Below the pieces are notes generated by a model, which saw only the letters and a list, made by a program, of their open reading frames with translations, was not told the origin of the DNA and searched no databases. From contig NZ_NOIU01000002.1 of assembly GCF_004136635.1 (NCBI RefSeq), positions 806,001 to 870,000 on the forward strand: DNA of 64,000 nt, read 5' to 3'. The stretch is from Rothia halotolerans. GTDB taxonomy: Bacteria; Actinomycetota; Actinomycetes; Actinomycetales; Micrococcaceae. Both the position numbers and the translations under genes were made by a program. Positions within the stretch are counted from its first letter, which is position 1. Every line of letters begins with the position of its first letter. Shown piece after piece: positions 16,545-31,513 of this stretch.

Positions 16545-18134
<1,590 letters not shown>

Positions 18135-18222: not shown

Positions 18223-18265
18223 AGCACCGGTGCCCCCGCTCGGACTGAACGGGGGCACCGGTGCT
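18223..18265 (-). terminator. Strong terminator after amtB
   Basis: A 16-bp perfect stem (18223-18238 with 18250-18265, left arm AGCACCGGTGCCCCCG) and an 11-base loop, 19 bases after the amtB stop; CTCTTGT follows on the minus strand. It separates amtB from ffh. Confidence 0.85.
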
Positions 18266-18283: not shown

Positions 18284-19663
18284 TCAGGCTCGGTGGGCGG
18301 GGGCGCGGGCGCCCGCCTCCTCCCGGACCTGCTCCGGCGAGGCGTCCGGGACGCTCGCCTCCTCCACGGAGATCCTCTGGTCGCTGAGCCCGCCCGAGGC
18401 GGTGGGGCGCAGCAGGTGCAGCTGGCCGGCGTCGTCCGCGGCGAAGAGGTAGGCCGACTCTGCGTGGGCCGTCATGTCGATGCCGCGGTCCTCCTCGCTC
18501 TCGGAGACCCGGAAGCCGATGGTCTTGTGGATCGCGAACCCGATGATCAGCGTCATCACCGCGGTGAAGGCCACCGAGACGACGGTCGCCACCGACTGGG
18601 TCAGCAGCAGGCCGAAGCCGCCGCCGTAGAACAGGCCCGGGGTGCCGGTGCTGCCGGTCGCGATGAAGCCCAGCGCCACGGTGCCGATCACGCCGGAGAC
18701 CAGGTGGACGCCGACGACGTCGAGCGAGTCGTCGTACCCCCAGCGGTACTTCAGCCCCACGGCCAGCGCCGAGGCGGCGCCGGAGACCGCGCCGAGCACG
18801 ATCGCCCAGCCGGGGTCCACGTTGGCGCAGGCCGGGGTGATGGCGACCAGGCCGGCCACGATGCCCGACGCTGCGCCGAGGCTCGTGGCGTGGCCGTTGC
18901 GCAGCCGCTCGACCAGCAGCCAGCCGAGCATCGCCGCGGCGGGGCTGACCAGGGTGTTGACCCAGATCAGGCCGGCCTGCGCGCCGTCGGCGGCGGCGCC
19001 GACGTTGAAGCCGAACCAGCCGAACCACAGCAGGGCCGCGCCGAGCATCACGAAGGGCAGGTTGTGCGGGCGGTGCTCCGGGTCCTTGCCGAAGCCGCGG
19101 CGGACGCCGAGGATCAGGCACAGCACCAGGGCGGCGACGCCGGCGTTGATGTGGACCACCAGGCCGCCGGCGAAGTCGATGGCCTCGCCGAGCACCGAGC
19201 CGATGGCGCCGTCCTCGGTGAACAGACCGCCGTCGGCCCAGACCATGAAGGCCAGGGGCGCGTAGACCAGGGTGACCCAGACGGGGACGAAGAGGCACCA
19301 GGCGCCGAACTTGGCGCGGTCGGCGATCGAGCCGGAGATCAGGGCCACGGTGATGATCGCGAAGGTCGCGGAGAAGCCGATGCCCAGCATGTCCGGGGTG
19401 CCGTTGGAGTTCACCAGCGCCATGTCCGCGAAGGGGTTGCCGACGACACCGGGGATCGCGCCGGGCGCGGTGGCCATCGAGGAGCCCCACAGGGCCCAGA
19501 CCACGGCGACGAACCCGATGGAGACGAAGCTCATCATCATCATGTTCAGCGCCGTCTTGGCCCGGGTCATGCCCCCGTAGAAGAAGGCCAGGCCCGGGGT
19601 CATGAGCAGGACGAGCGCTGCGGCCACGACCGTCCACACCTCCTGAGCGGTGATTGTTTCCAC
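18284..19663 (-). CDS. amtB: Ammonium transporter, Amt family
   Basis: 459 residues from GTG 19663. Eleven hydrophobic segments; PGLAFFYGGMTRAKTALNMMMMSF and the twin pore histidines His171 (VVHINAG) and His319 (GVHLVSG) are intact. The C-terminal cytoplasmic tail is long (about 65 residues after the last helix). In many actinobacteria amtB is followed by glnK and glnD before ffh; here a terminator and then ffh follow, so the PII pair is missing. Two GlnR-type boxes upstream indicate nitrogen control. Confidence 0.96.
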   Translation of the reverse strand: METITAQEVWTVVAAALVLLMTPGLAFFYGGMTRAKTALNMMMMSFVSIGFVAVVWALWGSSMATAPGAIPGVVGNPFADMALVNSNGTPDMLGIGFSATFAIITVALISGSIADRAKFGAWCLFVPVWVTLVYAPLAFMVWADGGLFTEDGAIGSVLGEAIDFAGGLVVHINAGVAALVLCLILGVRRGFGKDPEHRPHNLPFVMLGAALLWFGWFGFNVGAAADGAQAGLIWVNTLVSPAAAMLGWLLVERLRNGHATSLGAASGIVAGLVAITPACANVDPGWAIVLGAVSGAASALAVGLKYRWGYDDSLDVVGVHLVSGVIGTVALGFIATGSTGTPGLFYGGGFGLLLTQSVATVVSVAFTAVMTLIIGFAIHKTIGFRVSESEEDRGIDMTAHAESAYLFAADDAGQLHLLRPTASGGLSDQRISVEEASVPDASPEQVREEAGARAPAHRA

Positions 19664-19779
19664 GGCCGTCTCCCTTCCACGAGTGCTGCGCCCGAAGGCT
19701 CGGACGGCCCGACGTCGCCAGGCGCCGGGTCTTGCCGTCCATCCTCCGGCGCGGGTGTTTCGCGGGGCGGCCCGGTTGC

Positions 19780-19825
19780 GTTTCAGGGCGGTAACGCTTC
19801 TGGGCGGGTGTTTCGGGAGTGTGAC
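19780..19825 (-). promoter_or_regulatory. Two GlnR-type boxes upstream of amtB
   Basis: Read on the minus strand, GTCAC-n6-GAAAC (19825-19810) and GTTAC-n6-GAAAC (19795-19780) both match the actinobacterial GlnR consensus gTnAc-n6-GaAAc exactly. They are 30 bp apart and 118-162 bases before the amtB start; a further lone GAAAC lies at 19761-19757. Direct observation of sequence; regulation by a GlnR homologue elsewhere in the genome is inferred. Confidence 0.75.
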
Positions 19826-19916: not shown

Positions 19917-21038
19917 TCAGTCGAGCAGCGCGTCCACGAAGCCCTCGGGGTCGAAGGGCGCGAGGTCGTCCGGCCCCTCCCCGAGGCCCACGAGCTTGAC
20001 CGGCACGCCCAGCTCGTCCTGGATCGCGACGACGATGCCGCCCTTGGCGGTCCCGTCCAGCTTGGTCAGCACGATGCCGGTGATGTCCACGACCTCGGCG
20101 AAGACCTTGGCCTGGACCATGCCGTTCTGCCCCGTGGTCGCGTCGATGACCAGCAGCACCTCGGTCACGGGGGCGACCTTCTCGGTGACCCGCTTGACCT
20201 TGCCGAGCTGGTCCATCAGCCCGGCCTTGTTCTGCAGCCGGCCGGCGGTGTCGATCATCACCGTGTCCGCGCCCTCCTCCTTGGCCGCGGCGGCGGCCTC
20301 GTAGGCCACCGAGGCCGGGTCAGCGCCCTCCTGCTCGGAGCGCACGGTCCGCACCCCGACCCGGTTTCCCCAGGTCTGGAGCTGGTCCGCGGCGGCGGCG
20401 CGGAAGGTATCCGCGGCCCCCAGGATCAGCGTCTTCTCCTCGGCCACCATGACCCGGGCGAGCTTGCCCACGGTGGTGGTCTTGCCGACGCCGTTGACGC
20501 CGACCACCAGCACGACGCCGGGGTCCTCCCCCGCGCCGTCCAGTGCGAGCTCGCGGTCCATCTGCGGGTCCACCAGGCGGATCAGCTCCTCGCGGAGCAT
20601 CTGCTTGACGTGCACCGGGTCCTCGGTGCCCTCGACGCGCACGCGGGTCTGCAGGCTCTCGACCAGCCGCTGCGAGGGCCCCGCTCCGAGGTCCGCCATG
20701 AGCAGCGTCTCCTCGATCTCGTCCCAGACGTCCTGGTCGATCCTCTCGCGGGAGAGCAGCGCGAGCAGGCCCTTGCCGAGCATCGAGTTCGAGCGCGAGA
20801 GCCGGGCGCGCAGGCGCACCAGACGCCCGGCCACGGGGGCGGGCCGCTCGGGGCGCGGCGGGGCCGGCGCCTCGGCCGTCCCCGCGGGCTCGGGAGGGGC
20901 CTGGACGTCGTCGGCGTCCCGGGTCCCGGGGTACTTGCCCTTGGGGGGCCGGGGGCCGCGCAGCAGCACGAAGGCGAGGCCGCCCAGCACGATCACGCCC
21001 AGGGCGATGAAGAGGATGAGGATGAGGGAGTCGTTCAC
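19917..21038 (-). CDS. ftsY: Signal recognition particle receptor FtsY
   Basis: 373 residues from GTG 21038 (NDSLILILFIALGVIVLGG); a GTG 18 bases earlier is an alternative. Unlike E. coli FtsY it begins with a true membrane helix (about 4-24), typical of actinobacteria, followed by a Pro-rich linker and the NG domain: GVNGVGKTTTVGKLA (G1), ADTFRAAAADQL, DTAGRLQNK (G3), TKLDGTAKGG (G4). It docks the SRP-ribosome complex at the membrane. A plus-strand MFS gene separates it from smc, its usual upstream neighbour. Confidence 0.95.
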   Translation of the reverse strand: MNDSLILILFIALGVIVLGGLAFVLLRGPRPPKGKYPGTRDADDVQAPPEPAGTAEAPAPPRPERPAPVAGRLVRLRARLSRSNSMLGKGLLALLSRERIDQDVWDEIEETLLMADLGAGPSQRLVESLQTRVRVEGTEDPVHVKQMLREELIRLVDPQMDRELALDGAGEDPGVVLVVGVNGVGKTTTVGKLARVMVAEEKTLILGAADTFRAAAADQLQTWGNRVGVRTVRSEQEGADPASVAYEAAAAAKEEGADTVMIDTAGRLQNKAGLMDQLGKVKRVTEKVAPVTEVLLVIDATTGQNGMVQAKVFAEVVDITGIVLTKLDGTAKGGIVVAIQDELGVPVKLVGLGEGPDDLAPFDPEGFVDALLD

Positions 21039-21132
21039 CCTTCCAGCTTGCCACACGGCCCCGCGGCGCGTCCCTCCGGGGCGGCCCGCCGGGACAGGGG
21101 TGAGGCCGGGCCTGGAGCCCGACGCCGGGTAG

Positions 21133-26384: not shown

Positions 26385-27416
26385 TTGACCGCAAATTCGT
26401 CCATACGCCATCGCAACTCTGCGCTCCTCTCGGTGACCAGGGTCGAGGCCGAGGAGGTCGTCCCCTCCTCGCATTTCGATGAGCGGCTGAAGCAGACCTA
26501 CAAGCGCCTCCGGATGCCCAAGGGCCTGCTGGAGCGCCTGGCCGGCATCCGCGAGCGTCGCTACTGGGGCCCGGAGAGCTCCTTCGACGACGGCGCGACC
26601 CGTGCGGGCCGCGCGGCGATGGAGCAGGCGGGGGTGGCCCCGGACCAGATCGGGCTGATGATCAACGCCTCGGTGACCCGCGACAACTTCGAGCCGGCGG
26701 TCGCCGTCGGCATCCACCACAGCCTCGGCCTGCCGCGGCACGCCCTGAACTTCGACATCACCAACGCCTGCCTCGGCTTCGTCAACGGCATCACCGTGGC
26801 ATCGAGCATGATCGACGCCGGGGCCATCGACTACGCCCTCATCGTCTGCGGCGAGGACCCCTCCCCCTGGCACGAGACCGCCCTGCGGATGCTGGACGAC
26901 CCCGAGGCCACCCGCGAGGACGTCATGACCCAGTTCGCGACCCTGACGCTGGGCAGCGGCGCGGCCGCCGCCGTGATCGGCCGCGCGGACCGCCACCCCG
27001 AGGGCCACCGCATCATGGGCTCGGTCTCCCGCGCCGGCACGGAGCACAAGGACCTGTGCGTCGGCGGCGACGCCGGCGAGGGCATGAGCACGGACGCCAC
27101 CGGGCTGCTCAAGCACGGCCTCCAGCTCGTCACCGACGCCTGGGACCAGGCCCACGAGGACGGCTGGGACTGGGCCGAGATGGACAGCTACGTCACCCAC
27201 CAGATCTCCACCTCGCACACCAACGCGATCGTCGACGCGCTCGGCATCGATCCCCAGCGCATCCCGGTGACCTTCCCCTACTGGGGCAACGTGGCGGCCG
27301 CGGCGCTTCCCATGACGCTGGCCCTCGAGGCGGAGCGCCTCCGCCCCGGCAAGCGCGTGCTGTGCATGGGCGTCGGCTCCGGCCTGAACACGGCCCTGAT
27401 GGAGATCGCCTGGTAG
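26385..27416 (+). CDS. oleA: OleA, thiolase-fold acyl-CoA condensing enzyme
   Basis: 343 residues from TTG 26385 with AAGG 8 bases upstream; this start aligns with the N-terminus of characterised OleA proteins, whereas a later GTG would remove a strand. OleA joins two fatty acyl-CoAs head to head into a beta-keto acid. The active-site set is in place with spacing like the Xanthomonas enzyme (Cys143, Glu117, His285, Asn315, as I recall it): Cys129 in TNACLGFVNG, Glu103 in RDNFEPAVA (26 residues earlier), His272 in VTHQIS, Asn302 in YWGNVAAAA. First gene of oleA-oleBC-oleD. Confidence 0.93.
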   Translation: MTANSSIRHRNSALLSVTRVEAEEVVPSSHFDERLKQTYKRLRMPKGLLERLAGIRERRYWGPESSFDDGATRAGRAAMEQAGVAPDQIGLMINASVTRDNFEPAVAVGIHHSLGLPRHALNFDITNACLGFVNGITVASSMIDAGAIDYALIVCGEDPSPWHETALRMLDDPEATREDVMTQFATLTLGSGAAAAVIGRADRHPEGHRIMGSVSRAGTEHKDLCVGGDAGEGMSTDATGLLKHGLQLVTDAWDQAHEDGWDWAEMDSYVTHQISTSHTNAIVDALGIDPQRIPVTFPYWGNVAAAALPMTLALEAERLRPGKRVLCMGVGSGLNTALMEIAW

Positions 27417-27461
27417 CGCGCCACCCGTAGAACACCGCCCAGCCCGCCGGAGAGGAACCCC

Positions 27462-30245
27462 ATGGCCCACACCCCATCGAGTCCGGAGCGTCCCGCCGAG
27501 CGGTCCGCGCCGCGCACCCCGTCCCCGGCCATGCCGCTGCGGGGGTGGCCCGGCGTCGCGCGCGAGCACAGCCGCAGCGTCCGGGTCGTCTCCACCGCGG
27601 AGGTCGACGCCGGCGCCGAGCGGACCTGGAGCTACCTCGACAACCTGGGCGAGCTCGAGCGCCGGGGCCTCACCCCGGCGGGCACGCTGCTGTGCGTGCA
27701 CGGCAACCCCACCTGGTCCTACCTGTGGCGCCGCGTGGTCGCGGCCGGGGCGGACGCGGGGAACAGGCCCTGGCGCGTCGTCGCCGTCGACCAGCTCGAG
27801 ATGGGCTTCTCGGAGCGGACCGGGCTGCAGCGCGGCCTGGCCGACCGGATCGCCGACCTCGGCGACTTCACCGCCGCGATCGGGCTGGACGAGCAGGCCG
27901 GGGAGCACGGCGTCGTGACCCTCGCCCACGACTGGGGCGGCCTGATCTCCCAGGGCTGGGGCGCTGCGCACCCCGCGCTGCACGCCGGGCGGGTGCTGAC
28001 CAACACCGCCCTGTTCCAGCCGGAGGACGCCGAGGTGCCCGGCGCCCTGAAGCTCGCCCTCGCGCCCGCCGTGCACGGTCCCGGCACCCGCGGCACCACC
28101 GCCTTCCTGGACGTGACCCTCGGCCTGCACCGGCACCGCTGGGACCCGGAGGTCCGCGCGACCTACCGCAGCCCCTACCTGACCGCCGAGCGGCGGGACG
28201 GCATCCGCGGCTTCGTCGCGGACATCCCCGCCGACGCCGAGCACCCCTCCCACCCGGAGATGCGGCGGATCGCCGCGGCGGTCGCGACAGACGGGCTGCC
28301 GGCGCTGGTGCTCTGGGGCCCGCACGACCCGGTCTTCCAGCAGCGCTACTTCGACGACATCCTGCGCCGCCTGCCCGGCGCCACGGTGCACCGCTTCGAG
28401 AAGGCCGGGCACCTGGTCGCGGAGGACGAGGACATCGCCGCGCCGGTCTTCGCCTGGCTCTCCGAGCGCTTCACGGGGGCGCGCGACGTCGTCGCCGAGC
28501 ACCTCGCCCGCCGGGAGGCCGACGAGAGCGAGGCGCCCGTCTCCCTGGGGGACCGGCCGATGCTGGCCGAGCTCGACGAGCGCTCCGAGGACGACTCCCC
28601 GGCGGTCGTGGACATGGGGCGGCCGGACCGCCGCGGCGTCTCGCCGGTGGCACGCTCGCTCTCTTGGCGCGAGCTCGCCGCCGAGGTGGAGCGGACCGCG
28701 GCGGTGCTGCGGGAGGCCGGCGTCGCCCGCGGGACCCGGGTCAGCCTCATGGTCCCGCCCGGCGCCCGGCTCACGACGCTGATCTACGCGTGCCTGCGCG
28801 TCGGAGCGATCATCGTGGTCGCCGACACCGGGCTGGGCCTCAAGGGGCTCACCACGGCCCTGCGCGGCGCCTCGCCCGAGTTCCTGGTCGGCATCCCCCG
28901 CGCCCTGCTGGCCGCCCGCGCGATGCGCTGGCCCGGCCGCAGGATCCTCGCCGGGGGCGCCGAGCGCTCCCGCCTCGCGCTCTTCGGCGCCGTCGCCGCG
29001 ACCGACGCGCTCCCCTCCCGCCCCGCGGCCGAGCCGGAGCTCATCGCCTCGAACGACCCGGCGGCGATCCTCTACACCTCGGGCTCGACCGGCCCCGCCA
29101 AGGGCGTGGCCTACACGCACCGGCAGCTCGCCTCGATGCGCGACGCCATCCAGAGCACCTACCGAATCGAGAGCGGCTCGGCGCTGGTCGCGGGCTTCGC
29201 GCCCTTCGCCCTGCTGGGCCCGGCCCTGGGCGCGACGTCGGTGACCCCGGCGATGGACGTCACCCAGCCGAAGACCCTGAGCGCCCGGGCCCTGGCCCAG
29301 GCGGCGCGGGCCATCGACGCGACCGTGGTCTTCGCCTCCCCCGCCGCGCTGGTCAACGTGGTCGCCACGGCGGAGGAGCTCACCGCGGAAGAGCGCGCGG
29401 CGCTGGGACGCGTGCGCGGCCTGCTCTCGGCCGGCGCGCCGCTGACCGAGCCGCTCCTGCGGAAGGTGGCGGAGCTCGCCCCCGCGGCCTCGATCCACAC
29501 CCCCTACGGGATGACCGAGGCCCTGCCGGTCTCCGACGTCAGCCTCGAGCAGATCCTCGAGGCCTCCGACGACGCCGGCCAGGGCGTGGAGGGCAGCGGC
29601 AACGGCGTCTGCGTCGGCACCCCGGTCTACGGCGCGCAGATCGCCGTGACGCCGCTGGACGAGTACGGTGCGCCGGGCTCCGAGCCGACCCACCGGCCCG
29701 CCCTGACCGGCGAGATCCTCGTCCGCGCGCCCCACATGAAGGACCACTACGACAGGCTCTGGTGGACCGAGCGCACCTCGGTGAGCGTGCCGGGGTGGCA
29801 CCGGACCGGGGACATCGGCCACTTCGACGCCTCGGGCCGGCTCTGGGTCGAGGGGCGGCTGGCCCACGTGATCCTGACCGCCGGCGGCGTCCTCTCCCCG
29901 GTCGCCGCGGAGAGCGCGGCCGAGACCGTGGAGTCGGTGCGCCGTGCCGCGGTGGTCGGCGTCGGGCCGGCCGGGGCGCAGGTGCCGGTCGCCGTGATCG
30001 AGCCCGCGGAGGGGGCGGAAGGCCGTCGGGGGCCCGGACGCCGGCCCCGCGCCGGCGTCGTGGGCCACGACCTGCTGGAGCGGGTCCGGGCCGCGGTCCG
30101 CGAGGCCACCGGCGTCGAGCTCGCCGCCGTCCTGCAGGTGCCCGAGCATCCCACCGACATCCGTCACAACTCGAAGATCGACCGTCCCCGGCTCGCCGCC
30201 TGGGCCGGCCGGGTGCTCTCCGGAGGGAAGGTGCGCACGCCGTGA
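27462..30245 (+). CDS. oleBC: OleBC fusion: beta-lactone decarboxylase + beta-lactone synthetase
   Basis: 927 residues. Residues about 25-345 are an alpha/beta hydrolase of the haloalkane-dehalogenase type: oxyanion motif HGNPTWSYLWR (80-90), nucleophile Asp157 in AHDWGG, Asp289 in GPHDPVF and His317 in KAGHLVAED. Known OleB uses this fold to decarboxylate a beta-lactone to the cis-olefin. Residues about 350-927 are OleC, an ANL-superfamily enzyme: YTSGSTGPAKG (538-548), PYGMTE (681-686), RTGD (781-784) and the C-terminal Lys905 in NSKIDR; known OleC closes the beta-hydroxy acid to the lactone with ATP. The natural fusion is known in Micrococcus and related actinobacteria. It begins 45 bases after oleA and overlaps oleD by 4 bases. 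Confidence 0.94.
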   Translation: MAHTPSSPERPAERSAPRTPSPAMPLRGWPGVAREHSRSVRVVSTAEVDAGAERTWSYLDNLGELERRGLTPAGTLLCVHGNPTWSYLWRRVVAAGADAGNRPWRVVAVDQLEMGFSERTGLQRGLADRIADLGDFTAAIGLDEQAGEHGVVTLAHDWGGLISQGWGAAHPALHAGRVLTNTALFQPEDAEVPGALKLALAPAVHGPGTRGTTAFLDVTLGLHRHRWDPEVRATYRSPYLTAERRDGIRGFVADIPADAEHPSHPEMRRIAAAVATDGLPALVLWGPHDPVFQQRYFDDILRRLPGATVHRFEKAGHLVAEDEDIAAPVFAWLSERFTGARDVVAEHLARREADESEAPVSLGDRPMLAELDERSEDDSPAVVDMGRPDRRGVSPVARSLSWRELAAEVERTAAVLREAGVARGTRVSLMVPPGARLTTLIYACLRVGAIIVVADTGLGLKGLTTALRGASPEFLVGIPRALLAARAMRWPGRRILAGGAERSRLALFGAVAATDALPSRPAAEPELIASNDPAAILYTSGSTGPAKGVAYTHRQLASMRDAIQSTYRIESGSALVAGFAPFALLGPALGATSVTPAMDVTQPKTLSARALAQAARAIDATVVFASPAALVNVVATAEELTAEERAALGRVRGLLSAGAPLTEPLLRKVAELAPAASIHTPYGMTEALPVSDVSLEQILEASDDAGQGVEGSGNGVCVGTPVYGAQIAVTPLDEYGAPGSEPTHRPALTGEILVRAPHMKDHYDRLWWTERTSVSVPGWHRTGDIGHFDASGRLWVEGRLAHVILTAGGVLSPVAAESAAETVESVRRAAVVGVGPAGAQVPVAVIEPAEGAEGRRGPGRRPRAGVVGHDLLERVRAAVREATGVELAAVLQVPEHPTDIRHNSKIDRPRLAAWAGRVLSGGKVRTP

Positions 30246-31513
30246 ACAGCACAGGACAGCAGCACAGCATGCCGTGGAACCGGGGCTCGCACGCCGCGGA
30301 CGGGAACGGGGCCGAGGGGCCGACGACGCCGGGCGGTTCCCCCGCGGCCGCGCCCGGGCCGTCCGGCGAGGCCGGAGCGCCCTCCGCCGTGGCGGCCGTT
30401 CCGCGCCCCGCGGCGGCCGCCGAGGCCCCTCCCCGCGAGACCGCCTGGCGCGCCCCCGACCCCGCCACCCGCCGCAGGGTCCTCCCCGACGCCGAGGCCC
30501 CCGAGGAGACCGGCCGGACCGTCCTGGTCACCGGCGCCTCCGGGATGCTGGGGCGCGAGGTCGCGCTCGGGCTGATCCGCGGCGGCCACCGCGTCACCGC
30601 CTTCCAGCGCAGCGACGCGAAGGCGCTCAAGGCGAGCCTGGGCGAGAGGGGCCGGGAGCGGCTGCACCAGCACCGCGGCACGCTGACCGACCCCGACGCC
30701 GTCGAGCGCGCCCTGGACGGCGCCGACGCCGTGATCCACCTGGCCGCCAAGGTCTCCGTCTCCGGCCCCTGGGAGGAGTACGAGGAGGCCAACGTCCGCG
30801 GCACCCGCGTGCTGCTGCAGCTGGCCCGCTGGGCGGGGGTGCGCGACGTCGTGTACGTCTCCTCCCCCTCGGTCTCCCACGCCGGCTCCTCCTTCATGGG
30901 CCAGGCCAACGAGCCCGCCGATCCCTGCGCCGCCCGCGGCAACTACGCCCGTTCCAAGGCCTACGGCGAGCGGCTGGCCCTGGAGGCCGACGGCGAGGAC
31001 CTCCGGGTCGGCGTCGTGCGCCCGCACCTGGTGTGGGGGCCCGGGGACACCCAGCTGGTCGAGCGGATCCTGGAGCGCGCCTCCCGCGGCGGCCTGCCGC
31101 TGCTGGACCAGGGCGCGGCGCTGATCGACTCGACCTACGTGACCAACGCGGCCGACGCCATCGTGCGCTGCCTCGAGAGGATCGACGCCGCGCACGGCCG
31201 CCCGCTGGTGGTCACCAACGGCGAGCCGCGCACCGTGGGCGAGCTGCTGACCGGCATGTGCCGGGCCGCCGGCGTCCCCGAGCCCGTCCGGCGCATCCCC
31301 TCCCCGCTCGCGCGGCTGGCGGGCCGGGTCATCGAGAAGGTGTGGGAGAGGCGCCCCGGCGAGGACGAGCCGCCGATGACGGAGTTCCTCGCCGAGCAGC
31401 TCTCCACCGCGCACTGGTTCGACCAGCGGGAGACCCGCGAGGTCCTGGACTGGATGCCGGCGGTCTCGATCGACGCCGGGATGGAGCGGCTGCGGGAGTA
31501 CTACCGGGGCTGA
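30242..31513 (+). CDS. oleD: OleD, NADPH-dependent beta-keto acid reductase
   Basis: 423 residues from GTG 30242, whose GTGA overlaps the oleBC stop. An extended SDR / NAD-epimerase fold: TGASGMLG at 97-104 binds the dinucleotide, and YARSK (Tyr235, Lys239) with the Ser of YVSSPS is the catalytic set. It reduces the OleA product to the beta-hydroxy acid used by OleC. The first 85 or so residues are a Gly/Ala/Pro-rich, probably disordered extension, much longer than in proteobacterial OleD; a later start is possible, but no better ribosome site is seen. Last gene of the operon; no clear terminator follows. Confidence 0.9.
   Translation: MNSTGQQHSMPWNRGSHAADGNGAEGPTTPGGSPAAAPGPSGEAGAPSAVAAVPRPAAAAEAPPRETAWRAPDPATRRRVLPDAEAPEETGRTVLVTGASGMLGREVALGLIRGGHRVTAFQRSDAKALKASLGERGRERLHQHRGTLTDPDAVERALDGADAVIHLAAKVSVSGPWEEYEEANVRGTRVLLQLARWAGVRDVVYVSSPSVSHAGSSFMGQANEPADPCAARGNYARSKAYGERLALEADGEDLRVGVVRPHLVWGPGDTQLVERILERASRGGLPLLDQGAALIDSTYVTNAADAIVRCLERIDAAHGRPLVVTNGEPRTVGELLTGMCRAAGVPEPVRRIPSPLARLAGRVIEKVWERRPGEDEPPMTEFLAEQLSTAHWFDQRETREVLDWMPAVSIDAGMERLREYYRG

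Follow-up and report, generated by a model that had tools for sequence, protein, structure and literature searches.

Nitrogen control of amtB in actinobacteria

The closest described counterpart of the locus reported here is the amtB-glnK-glnD operon of Streptomyces coelicolor (PMC5826061, PMC10704036, both accessible in part). Its amtB promoter is described, in the available part of PMC5826061, as carrying three GlnR boxes (a3-b3, a1-b1 and a2-b2), of which the a2 half-site is atypical and non-essential. The available portion of a review (PMC4285133) regards glnD as ubiquitous in actinobacteria and as part of this operon. Going by the accessible sections of PMC10704036, GlnE acts without GlnK and GlnD in S. 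coelicolor and Saccharopolyspora erythraea possesses GlnR without glnD, and some of the pathway is thus able to work in their absence. On the channel side, the C-terminal region (CTR) of Amt is the region bound by PII in a mycobacterial pull-down (PMC11001197, in the part at hand).

The genome of Rothia halotolerans studied here shares GlnR and a three-box promoter with an atypical a2 with S. coelicolor, but has neither glnK nor glnD, and ffh follows directly after amtB. It likewise resembles S. erythraea in having GlnR without glnD; unlike that species, which retains GlnK according to the accessible text of PMC10704036, it appears to have lost glnK too. The variant is a modest departure from known nitrogen control, namely the loss of GlnK in a GlnD-less family with GlnR control kept. 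Members of a single genus that share this promoter and channel but either carry or lack glnK constitute a natural series, in which the worth of GlnK gating could be tested directly under retained GlnR transcriptional control. In the CC-licensed literature in PMC, we found nothing relevant on GlnR in Rothia or on glnK in Micrococcaceae.

The amtB locus and its promoter

We analysed a window of 64,000 nucleotides (C4:806001-870000) from a genome (G000) of 3.04 Mb in 10 contigs with an estimated completeness of 99.9%. A genome-wide search returned amtB (Table 1) as the sole Amt gene, and the nearest named AmtB among the best 80 matches is that of Rothia santali AR01 (92% identical). Another genome, G165, has the boxes and the AmtB tail of R. 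santali and probably is R. santali. On the same contig, ffh begins about 150 bp after amtB. The 81-nt stretch with the hairpin between them folds at -45.3 kcal/mol (z -6.0), and the hairpin is followed 3' of amtB by ACUCUUGUAA instead of a T-run; a similar hairpin sequence is found after amtB in G165. Of the strong terminator that had been proposed to close amtB, the very stable hairpin is present, but it has no T-run and was passed over by the terminator scan, so that termination of amtB transcription at this site is best regarded as likely.

Table 1. Features of the amtB region (positions within the window) and the PII-family gene on contig C3
Feature	Position	Strand	Basis or remark
ftsY, neighbour upstream of amtB	19917-21056	minus	TIGR00064, 326 bits; synteny
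GlnR box 1, GTCAC-ACTCCC-GAAAC	19810-19825	minus	Taken as the a3-b3 position; identical box, equally spaced, in R. santali
GlnR box 2, GTTAC-CGCCCT-GAAAC	19780-19795	minus	Taken as the a1-b1 position; in R. santali with altered n6
Third b half-site, GAAAC	19757-19761	minus	Taken as b2; a2 half-site degenerate; offset 64 also in G165 and G166
amtB, ammonium channel, 459 aa, GTG start	18284-19663	minus	TIGR00836, 394 bits, over cut-off
Stable hairpin between amtB and ffh, 19 pairs	18223-18265	minus	Without T-run
ffh, neighbour downstream of amtB	16545-18134	minus	TIGR00959, 570 bits; synteny
NifI1-like PII protein, 109 aa	C3:909965-910267		PII-family match, 64 bits; only one in the genome

The original prediction of two perfect GlnR boxes 30 bp apart before amtB agrees with our search: both are exact, with 14 nt between them, and the joint pattern (GTNAC-n6-GAAAC-n14-GTNAC-n6-GAAAC, with at most three mismatches allowed) has one match in the window, on the minus strand at 19780-19825 with 0 mismatches, while 0 of 100 shuffles contained a match. 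Single boxes at up to one mismatch are about as frequent in the window as chance predicts (3 matches vs 3.07 expected, not significant alone) and the signal is therefore carried by pairing and position. The whole genome holds five exact single boxes, two of which are the amtB pair, against one for a reversed-pattern control and about 4.7 expected from mononucleotide composition alone. Of the three others, two were rejected as GlnR sites as, by reading, they lie inside coding frames (L175 in that of a response regulator, L177 in that of an acetyltransferase-like ORF); the third (L176, G000:C7:181316-181331), a possible GlnR site, is found some 215 bp ahead of an ORF resembling a peptide-binding lipoprotein.

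Half-sites of the form G[TA]NAC have offsets of 0, 11, 30, 41 and 64 in the studied genome and G165, and of 0, 11, 31, 42 and 64 in G166. In R. santali, the half-sites of both boxes keep identical spacing with changed n6 spacers and linker. Streptomyces loci have GTAAC 20 nt before a GTCAC and GAAAC 11 and 33 nt after it (10 of 11 loci; in the eleventh, L083, the first three positions are present and the last is beyond the stretch examined). Relative to GTCAC, half-sites are thus at -20, 0, +11 and +33 in Streptomyces and at -30, -19, 0, +11 and +34 in the studied genome; the b site of the third box has an equal offset in G165, and in G166 and Streptomyces its distance from a1 differs by no more than 1 bp. 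The array fits the Streptomyces three-box plan, missing a2 included; naming the boxes a3-b3, a1-b1 and b2 is our own choice, made without the published sequence figure of PMC5826061. The interval first proposed had ended at 19757, where the third GAAAC half-site lies.

GlnR boxes themselves are standard. In 400 bp upstream of amtB, with near-identical species all counted, 18 of 22 loci of the genus have an exact box (0.20 expected from shuffles), as do all 11 Streptomyces loci; in the other Micrococcaceae it occurs at 12 of 43 loci (at up to one mismatch, at 37 of 43, with 2.35 expected), and in glnK-less Microbacteriaceae it was found at 6 of 10 loci (10 of 10 at up to one mismatch). Two exact boxes are confined, among the 22 genus loci, to the studied genome and G165, and no box at up to one mismatch was found in the 400 bp upstream of amtB in L148 (G157, glnK-less) and L149 (G081, glnK-bearing).

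The regulator is encoded at C3:238935-239585 as one of six Trans_reg_C proteins of the genome and has both domains, the N-terminal PF21695 (118 bits, cut-off 27) and Trans_reg_C (100 bits). Its best PDB sequence matches are 8hih_O (2.5e-68) and 8hig_A (1.3e-65), which we take to be GlnR complexes, compared with 8.1e-31 for RegX3; 4o1h, named GlnR, matches its receiver. A GlnR over cut-off is present in 129 of 149 Micrococcaceae genomes. A clear GlnR homologue is thus present, and since it is encoded and the promoter array conserved, nitrogen control of amtB does look preserved, as had been proposed. Apart from amtB, the region upstream of glnA1, which adjoins glnE and a second glnA, shows TTAAC, GAAAC, GATAC and GCAAC at 11-nt steps (L130 9363-9400, G000:C4) when read by eye; by this reading it appears to be a GlnR-like element, degenerate and with a period of 11 nt.

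Absence of GlnK and GlnD

As predicted, neither glnK nor glnD lies between amtB and ffh, and tblastn found no glnK remnant there. Genome-wide, the PF00543 search returned no GlnK, its single PII-family match being the NifI1-like protein of Table 1, and TIGR01693 returned no GlnD: the best match (40 bits) is the HD region of CCA tRNA nucleotidyltransferase and the next (23 bits) a 782-aa frame. A 478-aa open frame considered as GlnD is the CCA tRNA nucleotidyltransferase (TIGR02692, 718 bits). A Corynebacterium GlnD from a named locus scored 352 bits on the same model, below the curated cut-off of 519 bits, for which reason the score served as the test and the cut-off was not used. GlnE is present. 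The organisation of the amtB-glnK-glnD operon is thus absent, with glnK not directly after amtB and glnD nowhere in the genome; no glnK-glnD was found elsewhere. The proposal that AmtB may work without classical PII gating is consistent with this lack of GlnK and GlnD in a nearly complete genome. The claim that PII is absent holds for GlnK but not for the PII family, of which the NifI1-like gene is a member.

The missing glnD is real and yet not peculiar to the strain. When 149 genomes of Micrococcaceae were searched, with up to five candidates scored per genome, no GlnD was detected among the matches listed (best 49.6 bits, at HD positions), so its absence is a family trait, at odds with the view of ubiquitous glnD in the accessible part of PMC4285133. 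Named loci were compared where the sequence extends 2.5 kb or more beyond amtB (5 of 80 dropped: L052, L068, L102, L118 and L119; families assigned by record title). GlnD follows amtB at none of the 14 Micrococcaceae loci, at none of the 10 from Microbacteriaceae and at 43 of the 51 remaining ones, and glnK at 12 of 14, 0 of 10 and 49 of 51, respectively. A 52-bit ‘GlnD’ match in L048 (Micrococcaceae) is an artefact, as it matches query residues 1-85 and the GlnD domain starts at 97. The ten Microbacteriaceae amtB loci resemble the studied one in having GlnR-like boxes and no glnK or glnD in the approximately 8 kb examined downstream (10 of 10), but they are separate on the AmtB tree and have AmtB tails of only 2-14 aa.

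Distribution of amtB and glnK

Among 35 genomes of the genus, amtB is intact in 22, in pieces in two (G151, G169) and not found in 11, in which no PII match was found either. Canonical glnK stands beside amtB in 16 of the 22 genomes with an intact channel gene; the six glnK-less ones are G000, G165, G156, G157, G166 and G171, the last being 65% complete, with no glnK in the 1.4 kb examined after amtB. The order ftsY-amtB-glnK-ffh occurs in G118, G168, G081 and G172. In G000, G165, G166, G157 and G156 it is ftsY-amtB-ffh, the distance from amtB to ffh is 150-255 bp and tblastn found no glnK remnant. On an AmtB gene tree with 34 rows, nine of them glnK-less (six from the genus, three Microbacteriaceae), the glnK-less label needs five changes, four of which are forced by well-supported branches. 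The tree implies that glnK was lost more than once in the genus, and we infer losses rather than regains.

Across the 149 Micrococcaceae genomes, 104 have Amt and a PII match (including six with a divergent or partial PII match only, the studied genome among them), 28 have Amt without PII, 17 have neither, and none has PII without Amt. Five of the 28, all from one genus, have a weak Amt only (2e-34 to 9e-32), and G087 is 85% complete. Of the 132 genomes with Amt, 28 hence lack any PII match; without the five weak-Amt genomes, the figure is 23 of 127.

Some genomes of the genus carry broken genes. In G170, one of the 16 counted as having glnK, a glnK with an in-frame TAG (G170:C2:717029-717346) lies beside an intact amtB and may represent glnK decay in progress. 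The amtB pieces are at G151:C76:51097-52157 and G169:C4:949985-950785, and G151 also contains a glnK fragment.

The AmtB C-terminal region and tail

The CTR was taken as 23 aa and compared in pairs with a core identity below 0.85. GlnK-bearing AmtBs of the genus have a CTR identity of 0.844 vs 0.731 in the core (74 non-independent pairs), and GlnK-less ones 0.612 vs 0.751 (14 non-independent pairs). Measured against the GlnK-bearing members of the other clade of the genus, five GlnK-less tips have a CTR/core ratio of 1.18-1.63, and three tips of their own clade that bear GlnK have 0.60-0.76; the sixth GlnK-less tip, G171, has 0.86 and its sisters 0.56, while glnK-bearing G172 has 0.98. Label permutation gave only 1 of 15, which is the lowest value attainable. 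With three outgroup AmtBs as the reference, no such difference is seen (1.12-1.38 vs 1.04-1.35). We read the putative drift of the docking segment in five of the six GlnK-less AmtBs as suggestive only.

The long C-terminal tail of AmtB, which it had been suggested may matter, turned out to be ordinary. It measures 54 aa after the CTR in the studied genome, and at 42 loci with glnK from other Micrococcaceae the range is 27-54 aa (near-identical species all counted), so a long tail was dismissed as a mark of PII-free AmtB. Within the genus, tails are 12-19 aa with glnK and 14-58 aa without.

A NifI1-like PII protein

The only PII-family protein of the genome has a four-residue gap in the T-loop compared with the GlnK of G059 and no YRGxEY motif (Tyr51). 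It has the short T-loop GRGxQxGI and the GDGR loop in common with NifI1, and its best PDB sequence match is 9p1x_H (72 bits), presumably the NifI1 chain of a nitrogenase-NifI complex, vs 51 bits for 1pil, which we take to be E. coli PII. On these grounds the gene was rejected as a moved glnK; it has neither the full T-loop nor the amtB linkage of GlnK. Ahead of it, and sharing its strand, lie genes for an Amidohydro_3 protein and a GltS-like symporter (L001; L123 9939-13565); these neighbours set it apart from NifI1. Since the 19-kb stretch around it contains, by reading, no nitrogenase genes, and no second PII (a NifI2 partner) was found genome-wide, we call it NifI1-like rather than NifI1. 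Together with its neighbours it might form a nitrogen-catabolism sensor outside nitrogen fixation; nothing linking NifI1-type PII with an amidohydrolase was found in the CC-licensed literature in PMC. PII-family matches that are weak and divergent (roughly 1e-4 to 1e-11) also occur in G004, G035, G089, G020, G048, G092, G062, G105 and G122, which belong to other Micrococcaceae genera, some of them being second copies.

Proposed regulation and alternatives

Judging from the sequence evidence, AmtB is most likely controlled by GlnR transcription alone, without GlnK plugging. We give a probability of about 0.77 to the reading that a GlnR-activated three-box promoter drives an amtB whose glnK was deleted, glnD having been lost earlier. 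GlnR would bind the array under nitrogen limitation and turn amtB on, and ammonium excess would turn its transcription off; after an ammonium shock, GlnK would be missing as a plug for the channel, and GlnD as the modifier of a PII protein. AmtB activity would, for lack of both, be set by transcription, turnover and any action of its own C-terminal region, and fast post-translational gating would be missing. The loss of glnD would have preceded that of glnK; no sampled family member has glnD. We count against this reading that the PII-family protein elsewhere in the genome could in principle act on AmtB, as well as the box-less loci L148 and L149, the CTR ratios of G171 and G172, and the null result with the outgroups.

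An unlikely alternative is that GlnR is inactive at amtB and that the array is a relic or the site of another regulator such as PhoP, which competes with GlnR at the Streptomyces amtB promoter according to the available parts of PMC10704036 and PMC5826061. The genome-wide number of exact boxes, close to that expected from composition, would fit a relic, but the half-sites stay in place relative to R. santali where spacers and linker differ, GlnR has both of its domains, and the GlnR-like array read at glnA1 may also point to a working regulator. That glnK and glnD are present and were missed, through incomplete assembly or divergence, we hold to be very improbable: the assembly is in 10 contigs, yet it is 99.9% complete by estimate, a gap of about 150 bp within one contig separates amtB from ffh, R. 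santali and G165 have the same amtB-ffh structure, and the PF00543 and TIGR01693 searches gave only the NifI1-like PII and domain look-alikes.

It is improbable that the NifI1-like protein took over AmtB gating in the studied species and R. santali by way of a changed CTR and tail. G000 and G165 each have this protein as their sole PII match, with copies 87% identical, and the 23-aa CTRs of the two genomes are mutually identical and differ from GlnK-bearing CTRs. Against such a takeover stand the symporter and amidohydrolase neighbours, the 19-kb stretch around the gene with no GlnR box at up to one mismatch, the T-loop without four residues and the YRGxEY motif, and four other glnK-less members of the genus (G156, G157, G166 and the 65%-complete G171) that have amtB and no PII match. 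A true functional replacement of the lost GlnK by this symporter- and amidohydrolase-linked protein, through a re-shaped CTR and tail in the two species, is a longer shot still. NifI1-type PII has so far been tied to nitrogenase, and such a replacement would have this class acting on an ammonium channel or on nitrogen catabolism, in an organism that probably does not fix nitrogen.

A putative ole cluster in the window

Elsewhere in the window (26385-31513, plus strand), an olefin-type (ole) cluster seems to be encoded, comprising an OleA-like ketosynthase, an OleB-OleC fusion frame (haloalkane-dehalogenase-like and beta-lactone-synthetase-like) and an OleD-like reductase. Of the models matched, PRK09258 (ketosynthase) alone exceeds its cut-off; the other matches are weaker, and the ole gene names are tentative.
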